The notes below the pieces were generated by a model. That model was not told the DNA's origin. It did not search any database and was given only the letters and a program-made list of their open reading frames with translations. 64,000 bases of DNA from Trebouxia sp. TZW2008 (Eukaryota; Chlorophyta; Trebouxiophyceae; Trebouxiales; Trebouxiaceae), in the NCBI GenBank assembly GCA_002118135.1, contig BDIU01000384.1, positions 1 through 64,000 of the forward strand, in the 5' to 3' direction. The stretch's first letter is position 1; every line of letters begins with the position of its first letter. Positions 5,001 to 59,469 of the stretch are shown piece after piece. The translations under genes were made by a program, and so were the position numbers.

Positions 5001-7771
5001 TGATATGCACGCATGCCTGCTGGCAGGGAACAAGTATGCATAGGTCTGTTAGCACAGGCTTCAAGGACAGCTCAGACTAGATAGCTAGACCGTTTTAAAC
5101 TTCTGCATCAGGTGTGATTGTTTTGGAAAAAAAATGTCTGCTGCAACAGCCACCACGCAGCTTTGCAACAGACACTATCTTGCAAAACAACACAACTCAA
5201 ACAGGACTGCGCAACAAGTCTAGGTGTACTTGGAGCTAGGCTAGACCCTGCCTGGCACTGAAATATATCAGCTATGATTACAAACTAGGCCAGCCCAGCC
5301 CTAGAGTGAATTGACAAACCCTTCGCAGAAAGAATACTGCGCAAACTGTGTTGTGGAGCACAGAGCGCTTCCATGCAGCCCCAGGGCTGCTTCACAAGCT
5401 TCACAAGCCCTGAGTGGTCAGGAAACACATTGCAGCACTGCATGAGTAGTGCTGGGGGGCAAAACCTCTTTGAATACAAAGTTGACCAGCAGCATGTACA
5501 TGTCATTGACAACAATCAGGTGGACAGACACAAAGCTGTCCTGTAATAGGGTTATTGCATAGCACTGACACACTGATGTCTGGTGCCTTGTCAGGGTTTC
5601 ACAGGTTGTACAGCAAGGTATCTCAAGACGCCACATGAGCTTTTGATCATGATTTGGCAGACCTACACATCCCTTGCCATCTTGCAAATCCTTGCAAGAC
5701 TCAATGCTGGGCGCACATCACAAACAAGACCCTGACCTCCCCAATCTAGGGACCCCCCACATGCGCTGATCTATCACCTCTTGCCAATTTGCATTGCAAC
5801 TCTCAAGCAACAATAGAGCAGATGAGCATATCCTATGGCCCCATACTCACCCATGCCAAAACTTTAGGGGCCGAGCTGGCCTGGGGATTAACCCCACCCT
5901 GGGCCCCCTGATATTTGAGGTCCCTCTAACATGCACTTTATCAAGCCTTGCTGTTTGCAATACCATTCTCAATCAACAAAAGGGCAAAGGAGCATACCCT
6001 ACGCCCCCATAGCCTCCCATGGGAAAATTTTGAGGTCCCAGCTGGCCTGGGAAGACCCCCACCCTGGCGCCCCCCATCATGCGGGGTCCTCCCCAAAGGC
6101 GCTGATCTATCAAGCCCCTGCTGGCAACAGGGCCAGAGCCCCGGGGCGTTGCCGATTTGACCTCAACTCGTTTGCCTGACAGCTCGTGCATCGACCCCAT
6201 TGAAAAGACTTGCTCAACAGACGAGTCGCGCTCAAACGTTACAAAGCTGCATACAGAAGAAGCTGTTGATGCCTGTGGCAATAAGAGCTTGCGAAGGCTT
6301 GGAGCTTCCAAGATGAGGAAGCATCAAATGCAGGTTGAGTGTCCGAGGGCTCGTGCACTGAGCCCATTGGGAGTACTTGCTCGACAGACGAATCGCAGTC
6401 AAACGTCATAAAGTTGCCTCACCAAAGGCTGTTACTGCCACAATCACAGAGTGTGCAGTGCATGGCGAAAGTCACTGACAAAAGTCAGAATGCTGAAGGC
6501 AACCTGCATGCATTACTTCAGAAACATCTGTGTCTATAACAACCACGGAGTAACATGTGGTCATGAACAAGCCTAGAGACATTATACAATGACAGCATGA
6601 TAACTCATACATAAGCAGTATGCAGTCAGCACTATACGCTGCAAAGATAAGAGTGACAGGGACAGTGAAGCAGAAACAAATTTGCTCGCAGCAGCAGGAT
6701 TCATGGTGCAGCCTATGACATTGCTTGAGGAAATCTGAAGCTCACCCAAAGCCTCTGGATCTGCCGCTATGGTGATCAATCATGATCTGTGCTTCAAGGA
6801 CTGGCCCAAACTTCTCAAAGTATTCTCGGAAGTCCTCTGCAATCATACGCAGTGTTTGGGCAACCTGACTAAAATGAGATTGCAAGCTCAATTCTAGGTT
6901 TGCAGAAATTTAAACAAGTTGAGATTTGATGTGCGCTGACAGAAAACGGCATTGAAATAATCAATTTGAGGCAACTGCTTGTGTGTGCACATAGCAGAGT
7001 CACAGGATTTCACGAATAAGCGAGTGAGCAATGACAATGAAGTCAGAAAAAGGCTTCTTTCAAAACTTGCCTTCTTTTGTTGCTGGCGCCAAACCTCCTA
7101 CAAAAATCTTTTTACTTCTAGGCTGCTGCTGAGGAGGCACTGAGCGTTTTGCATCTATCTGCACAGCACGTCATCAACCTCGTGAGGGGTAGACAGAAGA
7201 TTGCAGGCGATGCCAGGATGCTTAAGAGCTGTCACGCGTCTTGCAAAGCTCTTGCTCGCACCTGTCTACCCTGCAGCTCGTGCTTCTTCTCGCAAACTTT
7301 GTCTGCGACGGCCTCGTCGACGTACGTAACAAAGCCAAACCCCCGCGGTTTCTCGGAAACGCGATCTTTCATGACAACCTGTGCATAGCGAGCAAGACGT
7401 TGACGCTGGTGACGAACAGCAAGCGCAGGCTTGACGAGTCTTGCGATGGCAGCCTACCACTTCTGTCATTTCTCCATACTGACCAAAGTGCTCTCGCAAG
7501 TCCTCTGCAGGTCAGGTCAGACTAGCTCAGTTAGCCCCAAGTGAGCATCAACTGCGAAAGCAACTCAAGCTTGTCAGGCTTACCTTCTGTAGTATTCCAT
7601 GAGAGGCCACCTAGGAATAGCTTCACACCACTGCGGACACAGTGAGCCAGTCAAGTCGACTGAAACAAGTGTGCGTGCCAACTGCACGTCGAGTACATGC
7701 AAAAGAACCCACGTCGACTGGCTACGACCGGCACTGGTCGAAGCTTCCGCCTGCCTCGCTTCATCTGCCAT
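2068..7771 (-). CDS. Two-RRM RNA-binding protein, hnRNP/Musashi-like (3' end unresolved)
   Basis: Exons in coding order are 7713-7771, 7584-7630, 7458-7504, 7262-7378, 7071-7158, 6746-6836, 5998-6246 and 2068-2373; their phases agree and give at least 334 residues. The first ATG lies at 7771. RRM1 has RNP2 KLFLGGL and RNP1 RGFGFVTY; RRM2 has KIFVGGL and RGFGFVTF. A Gly/Tyr/Gln/Pro-rich tail follows (GGGGGFGYGGGYGSPYGAGG). This is the layout of hnRNP A/B-, Musashi- and DAZAP-like proteins, which bind mRNA in nucleus or cytoplasm. The donor after 7071 is GC (gcaagt). The last exon ends in phase 2 at a gtaagc donor, so the C-terminus is missing. The final intron is about 3.6 kb. Exon 5998-6246 has diverged partial copies on both sides. 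The family is clear, the exact orthologue is not. Confidence 0.82.
2785..2840. repeat. GAATAT-like microsatellite
   Basis: An imperfect run of GAATAT and GAATGT units lies inside the large RRM-gene intron. Confidence 0.75.
3500..4735. repeat. Degenerate CTGCTG-rich satellite-like array
   Basis: Phrases such as TGATGCAGCAGCTCA, TGTCAAAGCTGCT, TCAATGCTGCTAGA and GACATGGCACATGAC recur in the same order at intervals of roughly 100-180 bp, in at least seven diverged units. The array lies inside the RRM-gene intron, has no conserved reading frame, and matches none of the exons I identified. Confidence 0.75.
5800..5935 (-). repeat. Ghost copy of RRM-gene exon 7, 3' part
   Basis: On the minus strand this reads as a diverged version of the end of exon 5998-6246, with GQLGP and MGEYG matching GQLGP and MGGYG. 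It lies just downstream of that exon, in the intron, and has an in-frame stop. Confidence 0.65.
6310..6425 (-). repeat. Ghost copy of RRM-gene exon 7, 5' part
   Basis: The minus strand reads SVEQVLPMGSVHEPSD, a diverged copy of SVEQVFSMGSMHELSG from exon 5998-6246. It lies in the intron just upstream of that exon. Confidence 0.7.
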
Positions 7772-8889: not shown

Positions 8890-11800
8890 CTACTTGATGC
8901 CTTCTAGTTGGGCGTCCATGTCAGAGTACATGCTCTTGAGCTGCTCAAGTGTTGCATCATCTGGCTTCCACATGCCTCGACCAGACGCCTCGAGCATTCT
9001 CTTCAGTAGATTGCTGAAAGCTTGAGGGTTGTTCCTGTGCCAATGTAAATGACATCAGCAGATCCCACACCCCTCTCTCACATGGAACGCTGATGCGTCG
9101 CTCAGTCGTAACCTATGTGCTCACCAACATCGACCACGGCTGACAGGCATACAAATCCACAAGACACATCTGAGCTGAGATGATTTTTCAAAAGCATGTT
9201 AGCAGACCTCACTGCAGCCTGTATAGACATGATGCGTAACCACAGCATTCAGCTTTGACAAGGACGACAACTTCTTTGAAGCATCTGCAGAGATGATGCA
9301 TCAGACACGGTCCAACAGTGCCTGAGCTCTTTACTCAAGCTGGACTTTGGGACACGTGTCTACATGGAGTGCATGCAGACAAAACGCTGCGTTCAGACCT
9401 TTAGACTGCACGTGAAGTAGCTGCTGAGTAATGGGGTTCGTGCAGCATGAGTTCTCTGTTTGAGCTGCAAACTGGAAGCTTTGAGAAGCAGAGTGAGAAA
9501 TGAGCACCTGGCCATGTAGCCAGCAATGCCTTTGATCCCATATGCGCACTGCAACATTCAACAAGTTGCAAACGCTGTGAGAAGGGAAAGACAACAAAAC
9601 CAGAGCTTACTTGCGCAGCTTATCAGCCATATCTTGGTCAAGAGCATAGGTGTCCGCAGCTTGGTCAAATACCCACTTCTCTGCAAAGCCTGTGGTGGCA
9701 CCCCACCCAATCATTGCTGTCATGCGCTGTGAGATCTCAAACGCCCCTCCAGAGCCCTGGTCTGCCATTGCCTGAGCAACACAAACCAGAATTTGTTGCA
9801 GCAACTTCAAAACAAGGTCCAAAGATTCAAACACACACGTGAATCACCCAATCAAGGGGGACTTCAGGCAGCAACATGAGCCTGTCTCAGTCACAGTAAA
9901 TGTTGCGGAGCTCATGGCTCAGACAGCTTACTATGCTTCAGGCCTGCTCACAAGGCAGCGCCCTCATTCTGATGCAAAGAAGAACACAAGCAATCTCAGG
10001 ATGCAATGAAACCTTCTGGGCAAGGCCAGACTGACTCCGTTGAGGTAGTTTGCAGGGGGAACTTTCTCTGCTGCATGCTTGGTTAGTACAGTATCCCACA
10101 CAGAAAGCAAAGCAAGTCTGACGAAATTTGCAAAGTTTTGCAAGTGTAGGCGTCACCTTGGCCCACTTGGGATTGAGCAGCTTGCTCCTATACTCCAAGC
10201 GTAGCACATCGGACAGCTCCTGAGGCGTTGCGTCTTTGCCAAAAGTCTCCACAATGGAACACCCCACTGACTTGCCATCTTTGCGCGCATTTTCTGCTGC
10301 TTTCTTCAAGGCGCCTGTAGATCCAAGTAGATGTAGCCTTGATGCTGCCTCCAAATCAGTAATCTTGCTGTCAGAGCATCCAGGCACATTATCATAAGCT
10401 GTGAAGCAATGGCATGTAAAGAGACCCTAGCACTGAGTGTGGGGCAGGGGGGGGGAGGGGTTGATATAGCAAACCATTCTTGCCACACTCCTTTAGTCAA
10501 CAATTTGCCCACGTGGTCAATTTGCCACCATTAGAGGCTGGCTACATACAAACGCTGATGGATGCAAGAATGAGAGAGATGTGTGTACACATGATAAACA
10601 CTGATGGCAGAAGTTGTCCAACCTGTGTTGGCATAATACTCCTGGATGTCTGTGAGACCATATTCCACGCTGTCAATCTCCTGCACCACTCGGTCTGTGG
10701 TGCCCAACAGAGCTTCCAACACCTCTGGCCTTGCTGTCCCTCTCTCTGAACCCCTGCATACACACAAATGGCCCCACTACTGAGTTGATGTCAGGCCATG
10801 TGCACCGTGTAGCTGTCTGTTTCCTGCACAACTTGGTCTGCGGTGCCCAGTAGAGCTTCCATCACCTCTGGCCTTGCTGTGCCTCTCTCTGAGCCCCTGT
10901 GAACATGCAGAGCAAGCGTAAACAAGAATGTGCCAATGGCAGACCATGTGCGCCATATGGTTAAATTCCTGTCCAACAAGAGAAAAAAGCTGTCATGAGC
11001 ATTGTGTTGATGCCAGGCTACATGTGCTGAGTGCCTGATTATTCTGCCATGCTGCACAGAACATGTGATGCCTGCATGGAACCAGGCAGATCTTGGTGCT
11101 GATGACAATGACAAGCAACACTTGCCATCATGACAGCAAGAATGTCAACAACATGCCATATGAGGAGGCGTTTCTGGAGGCCCAGGTGTCCCCCAGCTCA
11201 CTATCAATCTCCCGTTGGCGACAATCTTAGTGACATCAAGAATGCAAAAAGAACAGGAAAAAGAAGATATCATCCGCTTGCCTGCCATATGAGAAGGCAT
11301 TTCTGGAGGCCCAGGTGTCCCCCAGCTCACTGCCATTCTCCCACTGACTGCTGCCCACTCTCTCGTTCACCATGCTGCCGTAGTCACCTGCTGGGTTGCT
11401 GAACAGCCTTGCTGAGCTGTTTGCCAAGCCCTTGTCAGTCATGGCAGAACTATGCTTCCTGCATGGCAGAATTTGATGTTGCTATTGCTCTTCTTCACGC
11501 TGCCATAGTCGCCTGCTGGGTTGCTGAACAGCCTTGCTGAGCTGTTGACCAAACCTTTGTCAGTCATGGCAGAACTGTGCTTCCTACACAGCAGAACATG
11601 GTGGCATGATTGCAGTGTTTTGTTTGTGTCACCATGCTGCCGTAGTCACCAGCTGGGTTGCTGAACTGCCTTGCTGAGCTGCTTGCCAAGCCCTTGTCAG
11701 TCATGGAAGAACTATGCTTCCTGCATGGCAGAACATTGCAGCATCATTGGCGCCCTGTGTTGCTGTCACCTTTATGCCAACAAGCTCAGTTCGGCATGGA

Positions 11801-14800
11801 AAGGTGCAACCAAGAATCATCAGTCAAGGTCAGTGATGAGAGAAAGATAGACCGCAGGACCAAGATCAAACACAGCATCAGCAGGTGCTGCTCTGCAACG
11901 CAAGCTAGCAACCTGACACTCACTGCAGCAGTTACAGCGAACAATTCAGTCAATGTTGTGGTGAAGTGAGATCAGTTCATGCATTGACATGACCTAAACG
12001 AAAACAAACCACATCACCAATTTGAATTGCACTGAACAAGATTATCGAGGCATGGTGCAAGATGACTGCTCACCTGATGAAATTGCGGTCAGGCGCTTCT
12101 GGGGCTTGAGCTGCACGCTTGAACAGATCATCCAGGAGCTCAACAACATTTTGGAATGAATCTCTAAAGATGCCGCTCATGTTGCACAGCACGTCCACCC
12201 TAGGCCGCCCATCCATCTCCTGTACAGGCCAATGTAAGGTAAGATGGACAAAAGCAACAGTCCTGTAGTTGATAGTGCAAGATGAAGTTGGTGTTGACAA
12301 CATTGTTGACTACAACAACAAAGGTCGTAATTTGACCGCATGCATTTCTGAAGATGCCGCTAATGTTGCACAGCACATCAACCCTAGGCCGTCTGTCCAT
12401 CTCCTGTATAGCACAATGCAGATTGAAGTCAACTTATCCTACACATATATACTCTCTAGTATGCAACATCCTGTGCAGGACCCCTGTGTTGGCCGTCCAT
12501 CCAACTCCTTTAATTGACACAGCAAGGTGAAGTTGCTGATGATGGTGGTGACATTGTTGCATACAACAACAAGGGTTGTAGTTTCACAACTTTCTGGAAT
12601 GAATCTCTCAAGCTGCCGCTCATGTAGCACAGCACATCCAGCCTAGGTCTCCCATTCATCTCCTGTATAGTGCAACGCAAACTGAAGTTGGATCAAAGGG
12701 GTTCGACATCAATTTGAAGAATTCAACAGATTTTGACCTAAAGTTGCCGCAGCAGATCCGCTCTAGGTCGTCCATCCATCTCCCGTAATTGACAGTGCAA
12801 GGTAAAGTTGACAACAGCAACATTTTTGACCACAACAAGAATGGTAATAAGTGTAACGATAACAAGAGTGACAGTGGTCAAAGTGAGGTTGACAGTAACA
12901 GTGGTCTAGCAATAATAAACGCATAAAAGTCTCAATGAAACCATCAAAGTGACGATCGTGGATGGCTTATATCACCTCCAAGGGCCGAAGCTCATATCTT
13001 GCAACTCTGCCTGTTGCCTCTCCTCAGTGGCACATGATATGTACTTTCTTTTAAGCATGCATTTGTTGACAACAGCGAGATATCTCAAACTGCTTGTTCA
13101 GCATGATTGTGGTTGTGAGTGGCTTGCAACACCTCCAAGGGCACAAGCTCATATCTTGCAACTCTGCTTGTTCGCTCTTTCCAACTACATGCTGTATGCA
13201 CTTTCAGCATGCAATTTGTGAAAATGCGGAAAGAGCTCAAACTGTTCGTTTAGTATGACCATGATTTTGAATCGCTTGCAGTACCTCTAAGGGCACAAGC
13301 TCATATCTTGCTACTCTGCCTGTTGCCTCTCTCAAAGGCCGCGCACCCACAAGGTAAAGAGCTATAGCAACTGACTCGCCTTTGGTCTTGATTGCATCCA
13401 AACCCCACAAGTTTACCTGTGAATACAGCTGACTTGATTGGTTCTACAAATGCATAGGCATGAGACGTCACAAAACAGTATGAATGCTCAGCGGCCCAAA
13501 CAGCTGTGAGCCAGCATGCAACTTGTTGCAGGTCCAGTTGTACACATTGCGTCATCTGATCAAGTGCACAATAGTAGGGGCGCCAAACAAGATGACGAGT
13601 GCACAAGAGTAGAGGCGCCATGTAACAACATGAACGCCCAGAGTTGAGCTTTGTATGATCTGATTAAGTACAGAAGACAGTAAGCGCCACATATCAAAGC
13701 AATGCAAACGCTCACTTTTGTGTCACACACACCTGGTGTGTGTGCTCAAACGTGCACAGACTGTTAGTGTCATGCTGAAAGATCGCTAGACTCACTGCAA
13801 CAGTCTCTGGGTAGGTACAATTGTTGGCAGCCTGTCAAACACTGATGATAACAATAACAACGCATGCCACTTTCTAGCAAAGATGCTAGGTAAGTGTGGC
13901 ACAAGTCTTGGCACATGTCAAGCAATGTGAGCGCTCAGTGTTGGCCAGACGCACCGCAACAGTCTCTGGGTAGGCGCCGTTGTTAGCATCTCTATGAGCC
14001 TTCAAAATGCCTTTGGCTGCTGCTGCTCCTCTCTCCAATGCTGCTTGACTTGGCATGCGGTATGGATCTAGCGCATGTATGTTGCGCCCTGTAACAACCA
14101 AATACATAATTACGTCTGTCTGCATGACTGTCAATGTCTGTTGATGAATGGTGCAGCTTGTTAGCATCTCTGTGGGCTTTCAGAGTGCCTTTGGCTGCTG
14201 CTGCTCCTCTCTCCAATGCTGCTTGACTTGGCATGCGGTATGGATCTAGCGCATGTAAGTTGCGCCCTGTAACAACCAAGTACATAACTACATCTGTCTG
14301 CATGACTGTCAATGTCTGTTGATGAAGTGTATGCCCTGTTGGCATCTATATGAGGTTTCAAATGCCATTGGCTGCTGCCGATCCTCTTGTCGAGGCGGCC
14401 TGGCTAGGCATACGGTATGATGATAGAGCATCTATGTTGCGCCCTCTCATAATTGCGACTCATCAAGCGGTCAGTAACAAGAATACACCCATTTAGTCTG
14501 ACTGTCTCTATGCGTGTTGACAAGATATCGTCTAATCAGTCTCAACTTGATGGCAACACCTTTTTAAGGCTGCCTGGCTGGGGATGCGGTATCAATCCAG
14601 TGTATGTGTGATAGACCCTATCATGAGCAGTTGGTTGATCATGGGCCAGGCAAGTCACCGTGCCTGTCTGTATGACTATCTCAACAACTGTCCCTACTGT
14701 CTGTCAGCAAGGAATCAGATAGACCTGTCTCATTTAACGGCAACAAGCATCTGCAAAGTTTGTTTGCATGACAACAGGATGAGTGGTTGAGCTGACCTGT

Positions 14801-17800
14801 TGGCAAGACCCCAGCGCCATCCCGCAGCAGGTCACCCCCTGCTTGTGGTTGAATGTACTCCCCATTCAAGGCACGCACTATGGAGGTCATCTCCTCTGTG
14901 TTCTGATGCAGGAGACTCTTGATGTTCAACGCCTCATCCAGCTTTGTCTCTTCTTCAGAGGCTATGCTGCTGCCTGATGTCGACGCTCCATTCTGCAGCA
15001 TAACAGCGGCTTGACGGAAATGATCTTATCTGTGTTCTGTTGCAACAGACTCTTGATATTCAGCGCCTCGCTCAGCTTTGCCTCTTCTTCAGAGGCAATG
15101 CTACTGTCTAATATGAACGCTCTGTTCTGCATCACATGCAAAAGTTCACAGAAAGTCATCTCTTCTGTTTGCTGTTGCAGCAGACCCTTGATGTTCAGGG
15201 CCTCGTTCAGCTTTGCTTGTTCTGCATCAGCTTTGCTGCTGCCTGATTGGGACGCCCCATTCTGCATCACATCAACTTTGAAAAGAGCTATCTTTTGATG
15301 TCTTTGAATGCCACTGACCCTTGATATTCAGCGCCTTACTCAGCTTTGCCTCTTCTTCAGAGGCAATATTGCTGCTGCCCGATGTTGACGCTCCATTCTG
15401 CAGCATGTCAAGAGTTTGACAAAAATGCTCTTCTCTGTCTTTTGATTGAAGAGACCCTTGATATGCAGTGCCTTGCCCAGCATTGCCTGTCCTTCAGTGG
15501 CTTTGCTGCTGCCTGATGTAGACGCTCCATGCAGCATTCTACATCACCCCACAAGCAATGCTGAAATATAGCCTGCAGTAGGAACAATGCTTGAACGTTG
15601 ACCTCAAATAGGAACAATGGTGGAACACGGATTTGCATACTGGCATGACTTGCGCTGCTGCTTGATGAGAACGTGCAGTTGCTAGCATCTACTTGAATAA
15701 CAGACAAAGGATGCGTCGCAGTCTGTTGCATCGCTTGTGACATGCAGCTAGCTCTCAAATGGATATGAGCAGCTGCTCACCTGTGAATATATGCGCTGCA
15801 ATCTGGCTTTGATAGCACTCAAGCTTTCCCCACTGCTGTTAGACACCACATCGATTGCTGCTGGTGAGAGACTCTCGCCAAAATAGGCTTCCAGGTACTG
15901 CCCTAGTTTGTCAGGGCCTGGGCGCTGTCCCAAAACATGCAGCCCCTCAGAAAACAACCTTGTCTCCACCACCTGCAAGGCGAAAAGCATCAAGCCTTGC
16001 AATAATCCAATTTTGAGCCTAATGATCTCAAAAGTTGTGGGGAAAGCAACAGAGAAGACCAAAATGGACACATGCAGCCCTTCAGAAACCCGCCCTGTCT
16101 TTATTGCTGCACCCAGGAAGACATTGACCTTGCAAATTGTCCAACTTTTCATTGCATTTGGCCATGCTGCTTGCATTGACAATGCCTGTTTGGCCAGCAT
16201 TGGTCGACAGCTTCATTGACCTCTTGGCACTGATATTTGCACACCTGGGTTGGATCATTACAGGCGCATGCTCGAAAAGCACAAGCAGAAGCAGCAAACT
16301 CACCCATGCAACTCAGCTCAGCAAAAGTCAATAGGATCAGTAGGCCCGTTGCAGCTGTACAGCAGTGCAATGCGCAGAACACAGAGCTCGATGGACATAT
16401 TACCTCTTGCCATGGCCGTGGGTTTGTACCTACATTGCTGCAACTCTATAGACAGGATGTCTCATGATGATTTTGCAAACCCAGGAGCGTTCTTGCAGAA
16501 GTGACACACCTGTAAATATTGGTAAATGCGGCTGACATACTCTGAGAACTCTTCTTCACTCACAGCCTCAGCTGACTTGGGACTCAACAGCTCAGACTCG
16601 GATGATAAAGAGGAAGACGAAGATGTTGAAGATGAGGGTGGAGACGAAGAGGCAACAGGGGCATTTCTGAAGGGGCAGTCTTGGTCCAGCCCTGTTTGGG
16701 ACAGATTCTGAATGATGGGACCTCTCAGACTGTGATTGGCTTCAGGCTTTTCCCTATACTCTTCCACTAGGCCTTTCAGGGTTGCCAGCTGCTTGTACAG
16801 CCCGGCTCTGCATGAACAGCATGACAAACAAATAAGGACAATTGGTGAATGATGATTCAATAGCAATGTGAGTGTGATGGGATGGTAGACAAGAACAATG
16901 ACAAAAGACTTATGAAAAATCCAGCATCAGCAACAAACAGAACAACAACATGAGTACCTTGTCGTATTTCCAGCACAGGGTGCATGTGTTATATGATAAG
17001 TCGATACTTTAGCACAAAGAATGTGGACTTGAACAGTGCAAGAATAGATGAGCGTCTCTCACACGGGCATCGTTATACTCTGAGCAATCACACGCTCAGC
17101 ATTGAGTCAGAGACACCAAGTTATATCTTGATCAAAAAGTGAGATATACAAAATGCAGAAAACAAGCATTACAAACATTGACAAGATTTGTAATCAACTG
17201 TTGTTGAGTACATTACCTGGCATAAGGAGGCACGTTATGAGAGATGATTGTTCCATAGCCCCTCCTTTTGGCCAAAATAGACTCTGACGGATTGTTGGCA
17301 GCATACACATACACATTTGGCATGTCCCCAAGAAGCACATCTGACCAGGAAAGTCCTGAATTGCCTGCAGAAAAGAAAGCCTCCAGATTCAGTGCAAATT
17401 CCAATACAACCTGGACGATGCAAAGCATATTTATCCTGAATTACTTGACAAAGTTGATTTCATGCTAGCTCTGTTGACTGTAACTGACTCAATATATTCT
17501 GCAACTGCAAGGAGCGACAGTGGTCTTTGAGCAGCATCCCTAGTGATGTATCTGGCAGCCATGTCACATTGCTTGCCAGGATGATGTGTTGAGGCAAACA
17601 GGATGGACAACAGGCAAAGCTCAGCTTAAATGAGTCTCAAACAGAGGTATGCACGCCATAACTTGCTTCAGCGGCAGCAAGTAACGGCACAAAGCAAGGC
17701 TTGGCTGGACACAGGAACATGACATCAAGAGGCAAATGGCAGCATACCTAGAGGTGCGCCAGGCAACCATTCTACAGTGCCATGCATGCCAAAATGCACG

Positions 17801-20800
17801 ACTGCATCTGCCTTGTAGTCCCGCTGCAGCCACTTGTAGAAGGCAGCATACTGAGGGTGGGGGGTCAAGTCCCTGCATTGCATGAAAAGCATTGCCTTAA
17901 TCTGAAGACATAGAGAACATGAAGCCCCTTCCAGCAGTAATCTGCATAGTTATTGACTGTTGACATGGTGCATTGTGACTTGTTGCCTACTTTCAGGATA
18001 CATACGCGCTGAAAGGTTGTAGGCGTCAAACAAAGGCAGCCTTTTGCATAAACAATGGTGTGAAAAAGTTGGGATTGCAAAACATTTGTGATCTACAATA
18101 AGTATGCGAGTGATGCCATAATTAGGAAGAAATACTCATGTCACCTGTCAAACAACAGGCGCATTGGGTCGCCTTCAACTCCTAACGCTGGCTGCACACC
18201 AATCCACACATTCCCTACCTGGATCCCAGACACCACTGCATTGCCTGCACCAGCAACATCACTAGTAAGAAATGATCATGTCAACTGTCAAACAGCAGGC
18301 GCACTGGATTGCCTATCTGGATCTCAGACACAAGAGCGCTGCCTGCACCAGCAGACATCAGAACTGTGACCACCAGCTGTGATGATGCCTTTGCCATGGC
18401 ATCAGATCGTTCCTGTTGAAGGTAGCAGTGTCAGGCACAGAGAAAGCGCAAAGAGGCGGGTTGCTTGCACAATGGGATTGTCAACGTCTGAGGTAGCTGC
18501 AATTGCCAGCAACGTCACAGTCTGACCGTAGTCACAAGGTAGTCACAGTCGTCACAACAGACTAATCTAAAGCTGAAAAGGCAATGCCTCTTAAGAAAAC
18601 CAGATAACCCGCTGCTGTTTCTTTACAATTTGCACACAGACAGCTGTACATCTCAGGCAGAGGGACCACAACAACAGCTCCGCTTATGCAACTTTGCGGT
18701 CATGCCATAGGGTGATCAGCGTATCATAGGTAAAGACTGACCTGAAGCTGAAGTGGCAATGCCTCTATAGGAAGCCAAATCCCCCCATTGCCTCTCCATA
18801 GAGCTGACCAGCACATCAGACTCAGGCAAGAAAGGGATGGGACCCCACTCTGTGGGACCCCAGTCAGGGGGGTAGGTCAGCATCTGCTTGAGCTGCCTGT
18901 GATCAATCTCAGCTGCTGTTGCCTTTGCACCAAAGCTCTCTGCCTCACCAGCACCCCTGCAGAAGGGCAGACAGCTTATCGATTGCAAACAGCATGAGTG
19001 TGCATCAGGCAGGCAGGGGGATGAGCCTGCATTTTGTGGGACGCCAATCAGAAAGGTAAGTCAGCATTTGATTCAGCTGCCTTAGTCCCTTAGCTGCCTG
19101 TGATCAATCTGAGCTGCTGCTGCCTTTGCAGCAAAGCTCTCTGCATCTCAAGCAGCCCTACATAATGCAGGACAGCACATATGTTGGAAGCAGCATGCAT
19201 TGTCTTCAGGCAAGAAAGCAGTGGGGAACCAGTCCTTGGGATCCCAGTCAGGGGGCAGGTCAGCATTTGCTTTAGCTGCCTGTGTTTAATCTCGGCTGCT
19301 GTTGCCTTTGCTCCAAAGCTCTTTGCCTCTCCAGCACCCCTACGCAAGGCAGGGCAGCCCGCTTGTTCTGCATATGTCTGTGTCAAGCAAAAAAAGATCA
19401 GGTTTTCACTCAGGGGGAAGCCCAATTGAAAGGGTAGGTCAGCTTCTGATTCAGCTACCTTAGTCCCAGCTCAGTTGCCACTCATTGACCAGTGCACGAG
19501 GATTGTGTTTGTGCGTTGAAACAAAAGCGACAGCATAACATGGGTCGACAAAGTCTCACTTATGTCTCTATTCACTGCATCGATCCAAGAAAGATATCTG
19601 CCCAAAATTTGTGACCAAGACAGGCACACACCTCTTTTCAATGCTAGCTTTGCCTTCGTAGATAGCCCGTTGCTCTTCTTGCATCTTCAGAGCAGTGACA
19701 ATGGCCTCGCCATCAACCCTCCCAGATTGCCAGTCAGGGCCCAAATTGTACCCTTGCTGCTCCAATTCGCCCAGCAAATTGGCTAGGGAAGCCGGCACAT
19801 TCAGTAGGGCTGCTGTTCCTGTTGCACCCACTCCTGGCGGGAAACCATACAGCAGAATTGCAATCTTGCGTTCCTGCGAGCTCAAGACAAACCTGTTTAA
19901 TCGAGCACAGGAAAAGAGCAAGAAAGAAGATTTGTGAATAAATTGCAATGATGATAGAATTGCGATCTTGCGCTCCTGCAAGCGCACAGAAAGTACGACC
20001 AGATGAAGCAGAAGAGTTGCAGGATGATGAAGAAGAACGCGTGGTTTGCCAACTCAAGCATCAGAGCGGCTAGGCCATAACATTGATCACATTGCGTGCC
20101 CTAGTCATTGCATTTACAGGAGCGTCTTTACTAGACATCACTCTTCCATCTCATTGCACAGGTCAGAAGCAACAAAAAACTTGTCATGACAATCCAATTC
20201 ACACAGACTAAACTTGCTTTCTTAAGTGAAATTGATGTAACACTGATCTCATTGACAATGCTCCTGGCCTGAAAGATGACAGCACCATTGACAACAGAAA
20301 AGTCCCGTCGCGACAGCAAGACTAGCAGCTGCAACAACCACAAATCTCACAGTGTGTACATTCATAAAGTTGAAATATGGTCATTCTGACACGAAATCAT
20401 GCCAATCAAAGATGCCAGACCAACCTGAGGTTGTGATCTTCGTAGATTCACCCATTTCCTGATGCGCTGTGACAGCCTGGTGACGCGCTCCGAAACCAGA
20501 AAGATGTTATCCCCCACCAGGCCCCCCAGGGGCACTGTGTCAATGGCCCCGTCCAGCTCTGGCAGGGAGTATAAAACCACGCTCTGCAGTCCTGCTATGC
20601 CGTCACGGCTCCAACTTGCCATGTCCTGCATCCATGTACTGCACCAACTCAGAATCTGCGAGCTGGGTTGACTAAGAACAGGAATGTGCTGAGACAGTCT
20701 GATGTCGTGCTTAGAAGAAATTAAACGTGACCCCCCAAACAGACCGTCCAGGGGTACTGTGTCAATGAGCCCATTCCCAGCAGGGAATAAAAAATCACGC

Positions 20801-32761: not shown

Positions 32762-32806
<45 letters not shown>

Positions 32807-47120: not shown

Positions 47121-50100
47121 ATGCATATCGCACGACAAGCCATAGATCATCTGCATGCTTGGTCTCCCTCCCGCGTAGTAGTCGGCACTGCCCTGTCAAG
47201 CTTCGCCCTCGCATCAATATTGCTCTTCGCCAGCATTCTGACAAGCCCCCTCGATCCCTCCAGCCAAAGCTCTATCTGGCAAGTCGTCAAGGGTCCACAA
47301 AAGCAACGTTTTGAGTGCAAGGGACCGGTAACAAGCCCGGCCGAACGTCAACAGCCCTGGTGCCGGGACTTTGCGCTGAAGCTTGAGCAAGAGGTTGCAG
47401 TTTTGGACGCCGAGAAGGTAAGCTGTGGAAGGTGGTGGCGAGTTTGCAACTTTGTTGGTGCCAAGTTGGGAGTCTGCGCCACAGGGGTGTGATGCTGTTT
47501 TCTATGGGGACAGTATTACGGAGACATGGCGAGGCACAGATCAGGGCAAGCACTGTCCAAGGTGCAAAGGTGTGCCAGAAGTGTTTAAAAAGACTTTTGG
47601 GGCCAACCGCGCTTCAGAGGTCTTGGCTGTTGGTGGTGAGGTGCACAGCTTTCTGCTCATTAATAAATTTGGTTCTGCACTGATGACGCTAGTCAGCTCG
47701 CCATCCAATTGACCTTCGTGACTCACCAGCGCACTACAGACAGTCTTTCACCCGGCTAATGCAATGCGCATGCATGCGTGATTCACAATTCGGTTGTCTA
47801 GCTGTGATGCCCAATGACACAGCGTGTCCAATATCTGTGCACTCAGCATCGTGTAGCAATGTCTGACGTCACAAGATTGCATGTGCTGTCACAGGCAAAC
47901 AGTTGGCTATAACATCTGACAGGGTGTCCCGCCAAATCTGAACTGCAGTGCTGCTTGTAGGAGATCAAGCTATGCACCTGCTCTGGAGATTGCAGCATGG
48001 TCAAGTCTTCACAAAGCACATACCTCAGATGGATGTTGTCATGATTGGCACTAATGACCTAGGAGCAGCCAGTTGCATGGGCCAGGGTGAAGCTCCCATT
48101 CTCCAGGCAGCTAATGGCACTGCAGACAGGTACTTGATCCCATGTCTAGCTTCTGCAAACAGCTTTGACTGCAGCATGCACTGTCCTTTACTTTAGCTGG
48201 GGCAAGATCTTAATACTGCAAGCAGCAAACAACACTACAGACAGGGGACAGTGTCTCATGTCTAGCATCTGCACTGTCCATCACATGTTTGAACGGCGTG
48301 GTTTCATGGCTCTGTTGTGTCTTGTCTACACATGCAGCTTCAGCTGTTTGGCCAGGCCCAAAGCTCCTATTCTGCAAGCAGCAAACAGCACTGCCGACGG
48401 ACATCGACCTTCCATTTCCAGCATCTGCATTGTCTGAGATGTAAGGTGTCAGCTTTTCTGGGCAGGGCTGAAGCTCCCGTATAGCCAGCAGCAAACTGCA
48501 CTGCAGATAGCTGCCTAGCTCCTAATTGTAGGATTTGCTTTGTGCTCTGTATGCGCTGCCAGTTGCATGGGTTGGGACGAATTTTCTATTCGGGACGAAG
48601 CTTCTATACTGCCAGCAGCAAATGGCACTGCAGACAGGTACCTATCTCTGTGATCTAGCATCTGCAGTGGCTACAACATGCGCAGAGTAACGATCTCCCA
48701 TGCCAGGCACATATGTACACAAAGGGCATGACAGATTGTCCCTCAGCAGATATTGTAGACATTGCAAGTGCTGGACCTGGAGAGTAGACCATGCATTTTC
48801 AGCTTGCTTGGTCAAGATAGAAGCTGCTATTGTGCTAGCAACAAATGGCACCGCAGACGGGTGCTGATCCCTCACCTCTAGAATCTGCTTTGTGAACACA
48901 TGCGCCTTTCTGCTCATGCAAGGGTAAGGCCCTCACTCTATATGTGCACATGGTACTACACAGGTGGTCACCGCACATGTTTAGTGCCTGCTCTGCGTAT
49001 ACATGCGCCTTCACATGTTCAAGTACATGCCAAGTCCCCTATTCTAGATGCACTCAACTGCACTGCCGACAGGCGTATACGTCTCAGATATGGAATCTGC
49101 AGTGTAGGCTGTCAGCAATTTGGGACCGGGCGCAGCATGTAATGTTCAGTCAGTCGCCTGCACTGCAGACATAACTTCTATCACAATGCCTGTCTACCTT
49201 GCCTAGCATTGGCATTGAGCCTGTGTGATGCGTCAGCAGAGACCTCTTGCATCCCCCTGTGAGAGGCAAAGATGAAGAAGCGGCATCTTCGTAAGCATTT
49301 TGGCACCAGGCTTAACACTTTCCCAGAACTGAGGGTTACAGAGGGTTACTGGCCCTGATTTTGCTGTCTGCTCTGTGCAGCCGATGGAATTCCATGACTC
49401 TGCATAAAAACCATTTTTTTCTTCCACACTCAAAACGAAATGATAACAATCCAATTTTTGTCAATGCAGGATCACAGAAGTGATCAGCTATCTTCACAAG
49501 CAAAATCCCACCACATCGATCCTGATACTTGGCATTCTGCCAAGGGGCTCAGGGGAGGACTTTGAGACTAGATTCAACCTGCCCAGTGACTACAGTAGTG
49601 CGATTGCATTGGTGAACAACCGTCTGGAACAGCTTGCTATCAGCAACGTACTGTTCCATTTCGCTGATTGTGGGCCCTCACTAACAGTGAATGGCAAGGT
49701 ATGTGATGGTCTCTTTGCATTGCAAGGATTTAGCATTGCCTGCACAGTGTGTGTCAGTACATCATATTGTGTGAGTGAATGCCTGTATTTGTTAGCGCCA
49801 ATACATGGTGCCGTAGGTTTTTACACTGCTGCTGGCCAAACACGACAAATGCGGCGCAATGTCCCCAACTTAAAAAAGCGTGGTGGCACGAGGGTGAAAT
49901 GAGCATGCTTCACAAGGAACTTGCTTCAGCACAAATTCTGTACATCCTTGGCTGCATGTCTGATCAGCTTACCCATCGAAGCAGCTTCAGAAAATCCACT
50001 GCAGGTGCCTTCTGTTGTGTGCTGCTGATGACCAAAGATAGACAGAGAGACACACATTAGCAAAATACTGTGCGCAGATCTTTCCTGTGCAAAGCTGTGA

Positions 50101-53812: not shown

Positions 53813-56800
53813 TCAGCGTGCTGTCGCCCGCCTCTCGGGAGCGTTCCTTGGATGATTTGCCCCGCAAAGAGCTCCAGCAACTCGCCAAGGAGGCCGGCGT
53901 AAAAGTCAGTTCTGCATAAACACACTGAAGGCTACCTTCTTGCACAGCAGCATGCTGATAGAGTGGTCACCTGCAGGGTAACATCAAGAGCAAAGACATT
54001 GTCCAGAGCTTACTGCGGTGCCTTGAGGGTCAAGAAGCAGTGCCAGGCACCGTCCAAAAAGCGCACCCTGCAACATCCACAGAGCCTCTTGCACACGCTG
54101 ACACCACTGGCAGCATCGAAGCTGAAACCAGCCTTTCAGATCATGCCAAGCAGCTTGATGATGCCATGGACGCAGCAGCTCAGCAGCAGCCAGAGTCAAG
54201 CTTGGTACAGGACCAGCCTGAGCTGGCTGCATCTGCCAAAGGGTTTGCTGACGACCGCAGAGCATCCTCAGGCATACAACAGCCACCAGCCCCAGAGGAT
54301 GATCCAGCTGCTGAAGACCTGGCTCATACTACTGAGCTGCAGCCTGATCATAAAAGCAACAGGGATGCAGCTGCAAACGCAACAGATGCCGATGATGAGG
54401 GCTGCAAAGTCAGCAAAGAGCAACAGCAAGCAGATACGCAGCCTTCAGCCAACAGCTCTGTGCCTGCACAGTCTCCTGCCATGACTGCTACTGCGGCATC
54501 AGCAAACCCAGACGTCAGCGACGTCACAGAGCAAACACAATCCAGACCTGCGTCAGCATCTCCTGCTGGTACAGAGCTTGCAAGCACACCAGACGTTGCA
54601 GCTGAAGACCCAGGCAGGGTCTCGCCGGCAGCTCAGCCTGCTTCTGAACCAGCTCGAAATGCTGCAAGCACTGCTGCTGAAGCAACTCCAGACGCTGCAA
54701 ATACTGCTTCTGAAGCAGCTTCAGATGCTACAAATGCTGCTGCTGTGGGTGCAGTGAATGGTGCTGCAAGCACTGCTACTGTGGCAGCTTCAGACAATGC
54801 AAATGCTGCTGCTGAGGTCGCAGTGGATGGTACTGCATCAGAAGCAGCCTCAGATGCTGCAGACGCTGCTGCTGAGGTGGGTGGTGACTGTGTGAGCAAC
54901 CCCTTGTATGAGGAGCCTGAGGACCTCAGGCCAGTGCCTCAAGCTGCCGTCCAACCAAGCTTGCTGAGTCAGGATCTCCAAAGGAGTCAAAAAGCTGCTG
55001 CTGCAGCAGAAGCTGGTATGCCAACTCACCAGCATCATTGTGGACATTTCTATTTGCTGCAGTTGATGTGCTTGCAAGTCCTCTAGCAGACGTGTGACAG
55101 CTCATATGTGGCTGCTCAATGTCCTGAACAACTTCAGTCCAATGCACAGAGACATGCTGTTTGTTAGCTGCATGCAGCTCTCACAGTTGTGCAACCTGCC
55201 TCAGTCCTAGCTGACTGACTTGCAAATTGGCGTTGTTAGCCATGTCTGCCTGCTCATCATTGACTTCTATATATCTTTGCAGGGGGCTCATTGCATACTG
55301 CCGATGATGGTCACAACTGCTTTGCTTGTTCACGTTCTTTTTAGTTGGTGGCAATGAGTAGGCAGATTACGAGTGAGCGACATGTTAGTGCTCCATCATG
55401 CATGGTTCAGCATGCTTGCAGTGCTAGACAGACATCAATCTGTGCTTTATATTGCAAGCATATTTCACATTGCAAGCACCTCTGTCAGGTTTTGCTTGTA
55501 AATGCATTGAGTCAAATTCTGCAGGAGAATGCTGCTGGGCTCTCTGCACCAGGGCTGCAGCTGCAACAGCAAAGGGACAGCAACTCCTGCAGGAAAGCAG
55601 GATGAACACCATTCGTACTTACTTCTCTTTGTGATTGCATCAGTCTTGCTTGCAGGAGAGTGCGCTGTTGGGCCATCTGCACCAGGGCCGCAGCTACAAC
55701 AGCAAGAGATCAGCAGCTCCTGTAGGGCAGCAGCATGATCAGCACCTGCAGTATTCCCTGTTTGCAATTGTGTCAGTTTTCCTTGCAGGAGAGGACGCTG
55801 TTGGGCCTGCAACAGGGCCTCAGATGAAACAGCAAGAGGTGAGCAGCTCCTGCGACCAGGATGTCAAAATGGCTTGTGCCGACATGACAGCTGCTCCACA
55901 GCAACTGCTAGACAGCCAGCCTGTCCATGCGTCTGAGGCCCAAAGCCAGCAGCACAGCAGCTTGGCTGTGCACCAAGGGCCCCAGGATGGGTCTATGCAT
56001 GATGTTGTGATGTCTGAGGCTGAAGAAGAGCAACATGGCAGAGAGCCAACACCTGAAAACCTTGCCAATTTAGGCAAGGCTGTTGAGTTGGTGCAAGCTC
56101 AGAGTTGCCACCTGTCACCTTCTCTGCTGACAGTGGGTCAGGTTCCTCCTGGTCTGGATTCACCTGCAAGAGATGCGTTTGAGCGAGGTCAGCCCAACTT
56201 CCAGCTTTTGTATACCTGCACATTGTTGCAAAGCGTTGCTGATTGCTGTTTGGCTCTGAGCATTGCTCATCAAGCAGCCAATGGGTGACACAGTGAGCTG
56301 GAGTTTGTTTCTCTGATCAGCATTGCGAGGCATGTAGCACTACACATTCTGTGCATTGAGTAATTTATGGGGCTACGGTTCTGATATAATGCTGAAACTG
56401 CCTTTTGCATTGCATGCACAGCCATGCAAACTGGTCTTTCGCAAACTGAGAGACAAATGCCCTGCGCAGCTGCTACTTGACTGCCAAAACCGCTAAGCTA
56501 AGCTCATGACAATTCGCTAGACCTGGAATGTCGCGCCACCAGCAAAGCAGGACTGCTCTGTTGTCATTGCCTTACTAGCCAGCTGAACTCCCTAAAAGTA
56601 TTCAGCGACCATGCCTGTGGAGAACTTGTGACAGAAATGACGATCGCTGTCTGCATCATACTATAACAGTGAAAATGGTTACCAACAGGCGTGACAACAG
56701 GAAGCTTTGTGCATATAAGCATCCTGGGGTTGCTGCTCTGAAGGCAGCAACCACCACATCAGGAATGCTGCTCCTATGCAGGGCGCAAAAGTGGCATTTG

Positions 56801-59469
56801 GCAAGGCAGCACTGAGGTGGAACTCAGACAGCTGGAGTGCCAGTGGGATGACTACAAGGTGAGTCACACAGCAGCATTGTCCTATGACACACTGCTAACA
56901 AAACTGCACCTCCCCTTGTTGTCTGAATTGTATGTGCATGCTAGGCAAGTTCAATTGAAGTGCCTACCCACAAATTCCTCGTTGCACAGATCGATCATGG
57001 GTGTGAATGGGTTCAAGCATGAGTAGCTGATCACATAAGCCCGCTGCACGTCCAGCACCTGTGTCAGCACAAGCACTCTTCTGGTTTTCATCCTGCGTGA
57101 GCAGGCTAATTGAATGCATGTGCACGTGTCTGCAACGCAGTCTGTGGCAACAAGGGGTTGGGACCTGCCAAATCTACAAGAAGTGCAGGCCAAGTCAGAT
57201 GCCCTGGAGGCATCAGGCTTTGCCAATCACACACCTCACACCTGGTGTACAATGTGGCATTCATGGCTGTTATCATCACTACATGCATAGTCTGACTAGT
57301 GACATGTGCGTGTGTGCATGGTACAGTCAGTGGCAACTAGGGGGTGGGACCTGCCAAACCTGCAGGAGGTACAGGCCAAATCAGACGCTCTGGAGGCATC
57401 AGGCTTTGCCACAGTGCACTCGCCAATGGTCAGCCAAGCCACCAGGCAGGCCATGGCAAAACAGGTCAGGATATAGTTCCAATGCATGGTCAGTTCTCAT
57501 TTATGGTGTAGGGCCCTTGTCTTGAGTCGTGCTAGCTGCTGTCAAGCAATGGCTGGGCTGCAAATTACTGCACTTGGCTGCTGGTCACTGATGTCTTGGC
57601 TTCAAAGCATCTCTGTTGCTGCTGGGCCATTCAAATTGCATCACAAGAGCAGCATTTCTGCATTCCTCTTCATTGTCATGCATTGGACAGATTGCACACA
57701 AAAAGCTAGGCACTTCAAAAAGCAAAGTGCCACCTGCAAGAACATACCTGTACCACAAGGGCATGCAAACAGCAAACGCGCAGTATATATTTCATTCGCG
57801 ATTGTGCAACATGCTATGTCATAGTGCCATGCAACACAACTTAGCTCGATAAGATACAGACAAGCAGAAGCGCAGATTTCTTGGCATGTGTGCAGGTCAG
57901 CAAAGGTGGCAAGCGCAAGGCACGTGGTGAAGAAGGTGAGGAAGGGGCAGCAGGCAGCAAGCAAGCAGGGCCATCAAGGAAGGCAGTCAAGAGGGCACAG
58001 GGCCATACGCCGTCCCGCAAAGCCCCTGCCCACAGCCACAAGGGCAACAGTCCTGCGCCGCAGTCACATGGGACTCCCCTGCGGCATATGAATGGCACAC
58101 GTGCACCATCCAGATTGGCTAACAGCACTCACGCTGCTGACCTTGAAAATGCTGCTAAGGCTGCTAGCAGCACACCTGCTGCTCAGGTGCGATTTTTGCT
58201 TTTCCTTGTATGTCATGTTAAGAGACCTGCTGCAGCCTCATGCTTTGCAGAGCCTGCCAGGCTGTCTTGCGAAAATAACTTGCTATTGACAGCATTGTAA
58301 GACCAGGAGCTGCACACTGCTAGAGGCAGTGCAACTGAAACAGTTGAGCATTGCTACACCAGTGTTGATATGTTTTCAGGGGCTGCTTGTGCATGCAGCA
58401 TCCTTATGCCTCTGGAAGCTGTTGGCATCTAGTACAATCATACCACAATACATTTGTCAAAAGGCAAAAGTATGTGTGTTCATGGCACCGTGTGTTTGAA
58501 AGACGGATTGGGGCCAGAAGCCTGCGGAAGCCATGCAACAGGGCCCATGAGCCCTTGGAGTCCTCACAAAGGCACAGCATATCTCCATATCTTTTCGGGA
58601 TACTACTCCTATACCCCGAAGGGGTACTCGATACTACCCCGTATCTTTTCGGGAAGTATCCCTTCCGGAGACTACCCCTATACGCCGAAGGGATACCACC
58701 CCAAAGGGGTGCATGCAAGATGCTTCGAGTGCTCGTATAGCAGTGCAGCAATGCTCCCTTTCACTTGTTGATGCAGACAGGGGAGGGCAAAGTGCAGAGC
58801 AGCCCCTTCTGTGCCGGCATCACCAACAAAGACACAAGTGCAGGTGTGCAGCACTATCACTTCATTTTCTGATATTGAACCTAGAAAGGATTGCTTTGCA
58901 CAGCTGGCTGCTACTGAACCCTCTAGGTGACAAGAGCTGTCCAGACACTCTGGCTGCTCTAGGCGCAGCAGGCACTGCATCTGTGCATGCATCCCATTTG
59001 TCACAGGATCATGCAGCATGAAATTGTCACACATACAGCATGCATGCTCAGTAGATATATTGCATAATGTTCAGCTGCCAGCATGTGTTCAGCTTGTAGC
59101 AAAGCTTTTGCAATGCCTTTTGGAATGCATGGAAGGAGGTGTCAGCTGCTCTTGCACCATTTCCTGATGGCCGTCAGACGCTTGTCTCACATGCTAATTC
59201 AATTAATGCAAGGTGCCAGACTGACTCTGCCAAATGAGGGCTCCCAGTGTGCTCAGGAGATTCACAGTAGTTTTGAGACTCAGAGGTCACAGTAGCTTTT
59301 GCCTGGATGTTGCAGCTGCAACATTAGCATCTATATCTGATATGCAGGTGCCAGAGCCTCAAAAGCAACAGGCATTCCCAAGCCACGACCAGCCAATGAC
59401 AGAGCCAAGAAAGCAGAAGCAACCTTTGCAGCCCGTCGAGCAGCTGCTTTGGCCAAAGTCAGGAAGTGA
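53813..59469 (+). CDS. SAP-motif protein with Ala-rich repeats and basic C-terminus, function unknown
   Basis: Eight exons (53813-53914, 53977-55015, 55789-56187, 56782-56858, 57366-57464, 57896-58186, 58777-58843 and 59348-59469) join in phase to 731 aa. Residues 16-51 (LDDLPRKELQQLAKEAGVK, then KSKDIVQSLL) fit a SAP helix-extension-helix, which usually binds DNA. The middle is acidic and Ala/Glu/Gln-rich, with short repeats of the type EAASDAANAAAE at about residues 255-330. The last quarter is Lys/Arg-rich (GKRKARGEEGEEG, SRKAVKRAQG, RAKKAEATFAARRAAALAKVRK), as in chromatin or microtubule-binding tails. I do not recognise an orthologue. The exact exon set in the middle is less sure than the ends; two introns contain ghost copies that could be mistaken for exons. 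Confidence 0.7.
54655..54890 (+). repeat. Coding Ala/Glu minisatellite
   Basis: About six in-frame units of 33-42 nt built on GAAGCAGCTTCAGATGCT-like sequence encode alternating Ala, Ser, Asp and Glu in exon 2 of the SAP-motif gene. It is an expressed counterpart of the local duplications seen in introns. Confidence 0.8.
55500..55745 (+). repeat. Two ghost copies of SAP-gene exon 3, 5' end
   Basis: GEDAVGPATGPQMKQQEVSSS at the start of exon 55789-56187 recurs upstream near 55525-55595 (ENAAGLSAPGLQLQQQ) and 55655-55730 (GECAVGPSAPGPQLQQQEI). Both keep TTGCAG or CTGCAG acceptors. Spacing is about 130 bp. Confidence 0.88.
57125..57235 (+). repeat. Ghost copy of SAP-gene exon 5
   Basis: This repeats the acceptor region and EVQAKSDALEASGFA of exon 57366-57464 almost exactly, 190 bp upstream. 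It then diverges before the donor. Confidence 0.88.
58585..58711. repeat. Cluster of short GC-rich palindromes resembling plastid repeats
   Basis: Within about 125 bp there are CCCCGAAGGGG, TTTTCGGGA, CTTCCGGAG and CCCAAAGGGG, in two related direct-repeat halves (each starts CTTTTCGGGA and ends with a CCGAAGGG-type palindrome followed by TAC). Such palindrome clusters are typical of spacers in many green-algal plastid genomes and differ from the surrounding intron. It lies in SAP-gene intron 6. A plastid origin is inference. Confidence 0.6.

Follow-up and report, generated by a model that had tools for sequence, protein, structure and literature searches.

Tandem copies of exon edges in the introns of a Trebouxia genome

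How do introns come to contain repeated pieces of the very exons they adjoin? The question is raised by a window of 64,000 nucleotides (contig BDIU01000384.1, positions 1 to 64,000, Trebouxia sp. TZW2008), in which an initial annotation had described introns filled with tandem copies of the neighbouring exon edge and its splice flank, best seen in CHLH2, a gene for a magnesium-chelatase subunit H paralogue. We lean towards the view that these copies are explained by random small tandem duplications, of which those anchored in an exon persist, rather than by duplication targeted at splice junctions. The host alga most likely belongs to Trebouxia or a close relative, and is probably a lichen photobiont. 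The window (GC content 49%) is part of a genome of 68.5 Mb in 527 contigs, published Trebouxia genomes are given as 63–74 Mb with 49.6–51.1% GC in the available text of PMC11523091, and a magnesium-chelatase H protein encoded on another contig shares 92% identity with its counterpart in Trebouxia sp. C0010.

Local repeats in the window and across the genome

Comparing the window with itself (self-BLAST, pairs kept at E ≤ 1e-5), we found 70 direct and 2 inverted repeat pairs, and 69 of the 70 direct pairs lay less than 1 kb apart. The local pairs cover 15.8% of the window; a first-order Markov resample of the sequence, our null for repeats, gave 0 pairs. Tandem exon-edge copies within introns, local and head-to-tail as first described, are confirmed. 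Intron similarity to the own exon was also far above that to the remainder of the gene, a comparison close to the one on which the initial annotation had let its claim depend. Gene models were built with a purpose-written spliced protein-to-genome aligner fed with Trebouxia proteins, and gave the following features for the window, together with exons from an ab initio gene finder where stated:

8890..29438, minus strand: CHLH2, the gene in which exon-edge copies are densest; 26 exons, incomplete at the 5' end, modelled by spliced alignment to three Trebouxia proteins (P0121-P0123), with Pfam PF02514 exon by exon
10812..10899, minus strand: acceptor-side copy of CHLH2 exon 23 (10623-10753), 88% identical
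11154..11213, minus strand: donor-side copy of CHLH2 exon 22 (11282-11458)
11496..11778, minus strand: acceptor-side copies of CHLH2 exon 22, 78 and 96% identical
12340..12822, minus strand: acceptor-side copies of CHLH2 exon 21 (12074-12219)
12963..13184, minus strand: donor-side copies of CHLH2 exon 20 (13285-13416)
14158..14445, minus strand: acceptor-side copies of CHLH2 exon 19 (13955-14088), 78–85% identical
14889..15537, minus strand: acceptor region of CHLH2 exon 18 (14797-14992) and four upstream copies, period about 131–136, 73–79% identical
19005..19467, minus strand: acceptor-side copies of CHLH2 exon 12 (18742-18956)
20684..20991, minus strand: acceptor-side copies of CHLH2 exon 10 (20425-20625)
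21035..21369, minus strand: donor-side copies of CHLH2 exon 9 (21397-21633), at 21290-21369 and 21035-21098
21756..22225, minus strand: acceptor-side copies of CHLH2 exon 9, about four
23878..24122, minus strand: two acceptor-side copies of CHLH2 exon 7 (23647-23805)
24476..24541, minus strand: donor-side copy of CHLH2 exon 6 (24831-24978)
25201..25612, minus strand: donor-side copies of CHLH2 exon 5 (25672-25917), about three
26319..26425, minus strand: CHLH2 exon 4, the real copy, 107 nt, from the protein-guided model
26473..26834, minus strand: three upstream copies of most of CHLH2 exon 4 plus its acceptor (26473-26580, 26596-26707, 26727-26834), periods 127, 127 and 146, 82–88% identical
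28358..28833, minus strand: three upstream copies of the acceptor region of CHLH2 exon 2 (28132-28284)
34265..34854, plus strand: copies on the acceptor and donor sides of a USP39 exon (predicted 34503-34722); PDB match to USP39, exon ends ab initio
37869..37938, minus strand: donor-side copy of a mitochondrial-carrier exon (38089-38241), pair 37869-37938 / 38073-38142, 84%; exon ends ab initio
44174..44375, minus strand: exon-edge copy in an NDK/NME7-like gene, pair 44174-44375 / 44395-44595; exon ends ab initio
48213..48905, plus strand: array of about five donor-edge copies of a predicted exon (48029-48129); exon ab initio
55520..55852, plus strand: acceptor-side copies of a predicted exon starting at 55789; exon ab initio
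57117..57225, plus strand: acceptor-side copy of a predicted exon (57327-57464), pair with 57303-57411, 84%; exon ab initio

The CHLH2 exons first listed as having copies were recovered almost completely (2, 4, 5, 6, 7, 9, 10, 12, 13, 18, 19, 20, 21, 22 and 23) with the exception of exon 17, where the numbering may differ, and a weak exon-edge copy at exon 11 can be added. Two of the exon-21 copies give weak Pfam PF02514 matches below the cut-off (12323-12394 and 12579-12653). Beyond CHLH2, the pattern is present in the USP39 gene, the mitochondrial carrier and the NME7-like gene, and these names, as well as CHLH, had Pfam support; RRM, SGNH hydrolase and SAP-motif proteins, also named at first, had no Pfam support in the open frames tested. 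Further predicted genes in the window share the pattern, again with ab initio exon ends. The roughly five decayed copies after the predicted exon 48029-48129 form the longest donor-side array noticed in the window. In the CHLH2 model, exon 16 (16510-16807) was obtained by joining by hand two adjoining pieces, 16a and 16b, in a serine-rich stretch, and the ab initio finder likewise called it as a single exon. Within it, other Trebouxia proteins align to the serine-rich positions 16559-16597 as if across a 39-nt gap, which probably reflects coding sequence of variable length, not an intron.

To follow the pattern outside the window we used two sets. The first comprises six genes, i.e. CHLH2, CHLH1 (contig C189, 24 exons, protein-guided model) and four HSP70 genes on other contigs (C150, C165, C148 and C47) modelled from own or sister-gene drafts, with a short last exon left out in C165 and C148; together they have 86 exons, 80 introns and 160 splice junctions. 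As C150, C165 and C148 were chosen once Pfam hits had hinted at copies, figures for the six genes are enriched and do not describe an unbiased sample. In C150, for example, Pfam profile positions 131-205 recur in two upstream copies (E 1.3e-15 and 8.4e-12) at a spacing of about 172–174 bp; C47, fetched alongside the other three, has no copies. CHLH1 has 15 local direct pairs, 1 distant direct pair and 4 inverted pairs; for CHLH2 the counts are 57, 1 and 2. The two genes have just 2 intron positions in common, and their copies are therefore taken as independent.

The second set consists of 18 blind loci of 10 kb, picked unseen by contig number and position from contigs with protein-kinase matches. 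Local direct repeats occur in all 18 (1 to 23 pairs each, 156 in total), covering 0.9 to 31% of a locus, with 0 inverted pairs, one direct pair at a distance of at least 1 kb and 0 pairs after Markov resampling. The blind loci and the HSP70 genes support the proposal made at the outset in so far as the pattern is not confined to the window. Gene models in the blind loci are ab initio, from a finder trained on sets including CHLH1 and CHLH2 and judged on the same genes; it called 23 of 26 and 21 of 24 exons exactly, yet 34 exons where CHLH2 has 26, and several CHLH2 copies were mistaken for exons. Both copies were called exon in 45 of the 156 blind pairs, and these were excluded from the exon/non-coding counts (exonic coverage and codon-position mismatch).

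Anatomy and decay of the copies

An exon-edge copy that includes the splice site lies in the intron at 41 of the 160 junctions of the six genes (20 at donors, 21 at acceptors; each copy-bearing junction gives one to four alignments), and 35 of the 80 introns have a local duplication. With the unit taken as a family's smallest offset, the median is 150.5 bp, and 35 of 42 exon-edge families fall between 125 and 191 bp, a tighter range than the 100–280 bp given initially. In the 79 exon-edge families of the blind loci the median, read from the sorted list, is 147 bp, yet 10 of the 79 have units below 100 bp. The position of the junction within the unit was determined for 39 of the 41 junctions, two with a nearest copy beyond 230 bp being dropped: the exon share ranges from 0.13 to 0.78 with a mean of 0.50 and is compatible with a uniform distribution (Kolmogorov–Smirnov p 0.15). 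A whole exon is contained in the nearest copy in 0 of 41 cases.

As the units cross the junction at any point, the splice junction is not in general the breakpoint, though visible similarity often ends there. Among the 28 nearest copies in CHLH1 and CHLH2 with units below 230 bp, 12 alignments extend well into the intron, and 10 of these show intron-side similarity with z>3 in a shuffle test. The remaining 16 end near the junction, 4 of them with residual intron-side similarity at z>3 and one at z 3.0. Copies had been said normally to start or stop at the junction; this describes those 16, but not the 12 that run well past it, and 4–5 of the 16 retain a residue beyond it. Anchored gapped identity of the intron-side flanks was tried as a measure and discarded as too noisy (background identity in aligned columns 0.72).

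Copies at a minimum of 80% identity exist in introns for 13.7% of the exonic bases of the six genes (CHLH1 13.3%, CHLH2 24.4%, HSP70 genes 12.5, 11.2, 3.5 and 0%) and for 6.8% of the ab initio exonic bases of the blind loci. In turn, copies cover 17.9% of the intron bases of the six genes. Introns with a duplication are longer than those without, with medians of 448 versus 336 in CHLH1, 708 versus 393 in CHLH2, and 639 versus 338, 790 versus 371 and 612 versus 280 in three HSP70 genes, a difference of 110–420 nt in all five genes that have copies. This is in line with the earlier suggestion of intron growth, and the copies may explain much of the intron-length difference in the modelled genes. 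Intron lengthening can seldom be observed where transposons are few; here the individual events lend themselves to counting, sizing and dating.

After duplication, the intronic copy decays as non-coding DNA: its substitutions fall on every codon position, those of the exon mostly on the third. Mismatch at codon positions 1, 2 and 3 amounts to 12.1, 10.0 and 23.0% in the six genes and to 13.9, 10.1 and 24.5% in the blind loci, an agreement that also supports the ab initio exons of the latter. Unit length modulo 3 is evenly spread (14/12/16 in the six genes), indicating that the copies are not translated. Of 56 copies in the CHLH genes, 12 carry a net frameshift and 8 contain an in-frame stop. 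The splice dinucleotide is intact in 50 of 68 copies (GT in 18 of 29 donors, AG in 32 of 39 acceptors), and copy splice-site scores fit a neutral simulation (donors 2.22 versus 3.22 expected, p 0.50; acceptors 3.78 versus 3.74, p 0.14); selection against the splice sites of copies was considered and is not seen. Many duplicate donors and acceptors in these introns are thus still intact, and they offer a natural test of spliceosome choice among sites that are nearly identical. Copies that resemble exons also put gene annotation at risk.

These numbers bear on the idea that the copies are functional, either as alternative or mutually exclusive exons or as decoy splice sites under selection, which we consider very unlikely. 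It could draw on the retained AG and GT dinucleotides and on the 48 of 56 CHLH copies without an in-frame stop; against it stand the lack of whole exons, the even unit length modulo 3, a codon-position mismatch as for a neutral copy of a constrained exon, and splice-site scores that match neutral decay.

For dating we used divergence at codon positions 1 and 2 in 103 of 123 copies, dropping those with fewer than 25 sites. Values run from 0.02 to more than 0.25 with medians of 0.10 and 0.12; the six genes show a roughly even distribution between 0.02 and 0.14, and just 4 of the 55 blind-locus copies fall under 0.06. As 0 of 103 copies lie below 0.02, the process cannot be called active, as it had been, on these data, although collapse of identical repeats could hide young copies. 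The distribution fits a duplication process of long standing that may have slowed, as seen through one assembly in which identical 150-bp repeats could be collapsed.

Origin of the bias towards exon edges

If duplications strike anywhere, why are they found at exon edges? The excess of families there is real. Exon-edge families outnumber families lying purely within introns by 42 to 3 in the six genes and by 79 to 21 in the blind loci. Detection rates for the nulls were taken from simulated decay of junction-crossing and pure-intron duplications at five ages, in which 157 of 200 donor-type, 152 of 200 acceptor-type and 117 of 200 pure-intron duplications were recovered. Detection bias as the full explanation was rejected, the simulated exon-edge advantage being only modest and too small for 42 to 3.

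In the reading towards which we lean, many independent tandem duplications with a unit of about 150 bp (usually 125–190) would hit the genome regardless of exon boundaries. Duplications inside coding sequence or holding a whole exon, of which there are none in the six modelled genes, would presumably be purged. A duplication that crosses a junction could be fixed, for use of the outer donor, or of the outer acceptor, would restore the original mRNA; the second copy would become intron and decay neutrally, and the intron would gain one unit per event. Pure-intron duplications should arise as well, but both of their copies would mutate and be deleted freely and so vanish, whereas in a junction-crossing pair one copy would be held by selection on the protein. 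This one-sided hold would produce an apparent bias towards exon edges. The likely mutational source would be a break, opened by two nicks staggered by about one nucleosome and then joined, which has been put forward for tandem duplications in rice and other organisms.

What favours a random origin, with pure-intron pairs later lost or blurred faster, is that young pairs are less junction-biased than old ones. With units of 100–230 bp and cut-offs intended to equalise the age of both classes, all sets pooled give 9 exon-edge and 4 pure pairs among the young and 106 and 7 among the old (Fisher p 0.015); two other cut-offs give p 0.0005 and 0.002, with pure pairs making up 6 of 16 and 7 of 28 of the young. 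The young pure fraction (4 of 13) fits the 29–57% predicted by random placement, but the old fraction (7 of 113) does not. Lower identity also goes with a larger exon share (Spearman -0.41, p 0.01).

Several observations weigh against this reading. Pure-intron families are far scarcer than random placement predicts: 3 of 45 in the six genes, where 29–57% are predicted (p 2e-4 to 1e-12, by assumptions on ancestral intron length and retention), 21 of 100 in the blind loci (expectation 60%) and, in the remainder of the window, 5 of 19 (expectation 73%). Young pairs are few, so the age split has a narrow base; ab initio loci supply all 4 of the pure ones, and the six genes have 5 young exon-edge pairs and 0 pure. 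The trend of identity with exon share is what exon-anchored retention would give, but limits of detection would produce it too. Finally, alignments end near the junction in 16 of 28 nearest copies, compared to 5–30% of simulated tandem duplications at exon identities of 0.81–0.88 (48% under the harshest setting), and no intron-side similarity was detected in 11 of the 28, 6 of which have exon identities of 0.87–0.92.

The strongest alternative, which we hold to be improbable but worth keeping in sight, is that duplication itself is directed to exon edges, through nucleosome placement on exons or through breaks coupled to transcription or splicing. The family ratios in both sets, which exceed the detection-only null, the young class of the six genes, a unit length near one nucleosome and the 11 copies without intron-side similarity would all suit it. 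It is opposed by the free position of the junction within the unit and by the pooled young pure pairs, whose share, 4 of 13, falls within the 29–57% of random placement (6 of 16 and 7 of 28 with the other cut-offs). As the junction may sit anywhere in the unit and young pairs are less junction-biased than old ones, the targeted duplication of splice junctions proposed in the initial annotation is not supported. A bolder version, to which we give marginally less credence still, would make splice-junction regions the preferred substrate of a tandem duplicator working in steps of about 150 bp, or one nucleosome, with introns growing by recopying of exon edges and the spliceosome habitually picking the outermost of two to five equivalent sites.

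A still less likely account, though not the least likely, would have the copies be ordinary minisatellites overlapping exons by chance. Sizes do overlap: besides the 10 short exon-edge families noted above, 13 of the 21 non-coding-only tandem families of the blind loci (e.g. L036 9630-9749) have units of 60–104 bp, some of them near-identical, and these look like ordinary minisatellites. The exon-edge families themselves, however, are low in copy number, have a unit mode near 150 bp and have an exon as the anchor of one copy.

Introners or another mobile element inserting into introns would account for an element-like unit size and for the many introns affected, and introners are known in algae (PMC9860276, available text). 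Yet every unit copies its own neighbouring exon. Whole-genome searches, which skip very common words, with the stretch holding two CHLH2 exon-4 copies and with the whole intron adjoining exon 18 matched their own locus only, while the same search readily found a dispersed repeat of the window as a positive control (40 listed matches scored of 1395 candidates). That repeat is also the one distant pair among the 70 direct pairs. We regard such an origin as highly improbable. An assembly artefact is the least credible reading of all: the window has one run of 15 N, and near-identical repeats may be collapsed or misplaced, but the copies differ from the exon by 4–30% on the exon side and carry, in modelled genes and blind loci alike, a codon-position signature that is not a product of misassembly.

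Relation to known systems and side observations

The initial annotation knew of no standard feature class for such copies, but that goes too far: the available text of the Exonize report (PMC12343006; classes 'intronic' and 'inter-boundary') recognises degenerate or intronic partial exon duplications as a class, and tandem duplication across an exon-intron boundary has been described in single genes (PMC4974935, as far as the accessible text goes). The Trebouxia copies agree with the Exonize classes in being exon sequence copied within the gene, intronic and decaying, and a non-coding intronic homologue is present in 5 of the 6 modelled genes and in the pooled blind loci. They differ in being partial, crossing one junction, having a narrow unit of about 150 bp and affecting about a quarter of the junctions in the six genes. 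The same source states that lower eukaryotes generally have fewer duplication events than vertebrates. Tandem exon duplications and mutually exclusive exons (accessible parts of PMC9013439 and PMC6071210) likewise involve local exonic tandem duplication with introns partly co-duplicated; unlike these, our copies hold no whole exons and do not conserve frame. For comparison with the 13.7% of our six genes, PMC9013439 puts the copied share of exonic bases (80% identity or more) at about 2% in human, 0.08% in Drosophila and 0.06% in C. elegans, obtained with another aligner and counting rule.

Similar single cases are tandem duplications across or within exons in Drosophila that are rescued by splicing (PMC2891723, in its available part) and a potato duplication which, in the account available, crosses an intron-exon boundary as the Trebouxia copies do. 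Intron gain by tandem duplication (Rogers) would place an intron where none had been; here existing introns are lengthened, and the six genes yielded no exon/exon family of the kind expected from a new intron. Paired nicks are a known source of small tandem duplications according to the accessible text of PMC7407515 and PMC5730883; the former cites rice insertions of 10–1000 bp by patch-mediated or paired-nick tandem duplication, and the latter describes tandem duplications dependent on classical non-homologous end joining (cNHEJ). Our copies resemble these in being local, direct and without a distant donor, but their unit size is narrow. With introners (PMC9860276, available part) they share large-scale intron remodelling in algae and a nucleosome-scale size. 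Introners are, however, described there as dispersed mobile elements, whereas the Trebouxia copies sit inside longer introns and include exon sequence instead of forming complete introns, and the two arrays searched lack near-identical copies in many genes. No account of such copies in an alga stood among the titles and abstract openings listed first in searches of open-licence literature, and term searches of two Trebouxia genome papers and one on Asterochloris returned no mention of them. The kind is therefore known, but the scale, with about a quarter of junctions affected in several genes and a one-nucleosome unit, seems to be undescribed in the papers searched.

As a proxy for copies in relatives we looked for internal repeats within 200 residues in 10 predicted CHLH proteins (5 from Trebouxia) and found none. 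The predicted protein P0121, the CHLH2 of Trebouxia sp. C0004, holds the N-terminal part of CHLH2 twice (residues 22-363 and 361-1771, the second match at 77% over 342 residues), owing to a larger tandem duplication in that strain or else to fused gene models. The dispersed repeat mentioned above (1500-1620 / 23374-23455, the sole distant direct pair of the window, about 70–110 bp) occurs on many contigs and both strands, with 83–95% identity among the matches listed; Rfam at gathering thresholds gave no match in the window, this repeat included, and the repeat may be a short non-autonomous mobile element. At 3530-4643 the window also holds a dense array of diverged tandem copies, assigned to no exon, in sequence that the gene finder called non-coding.

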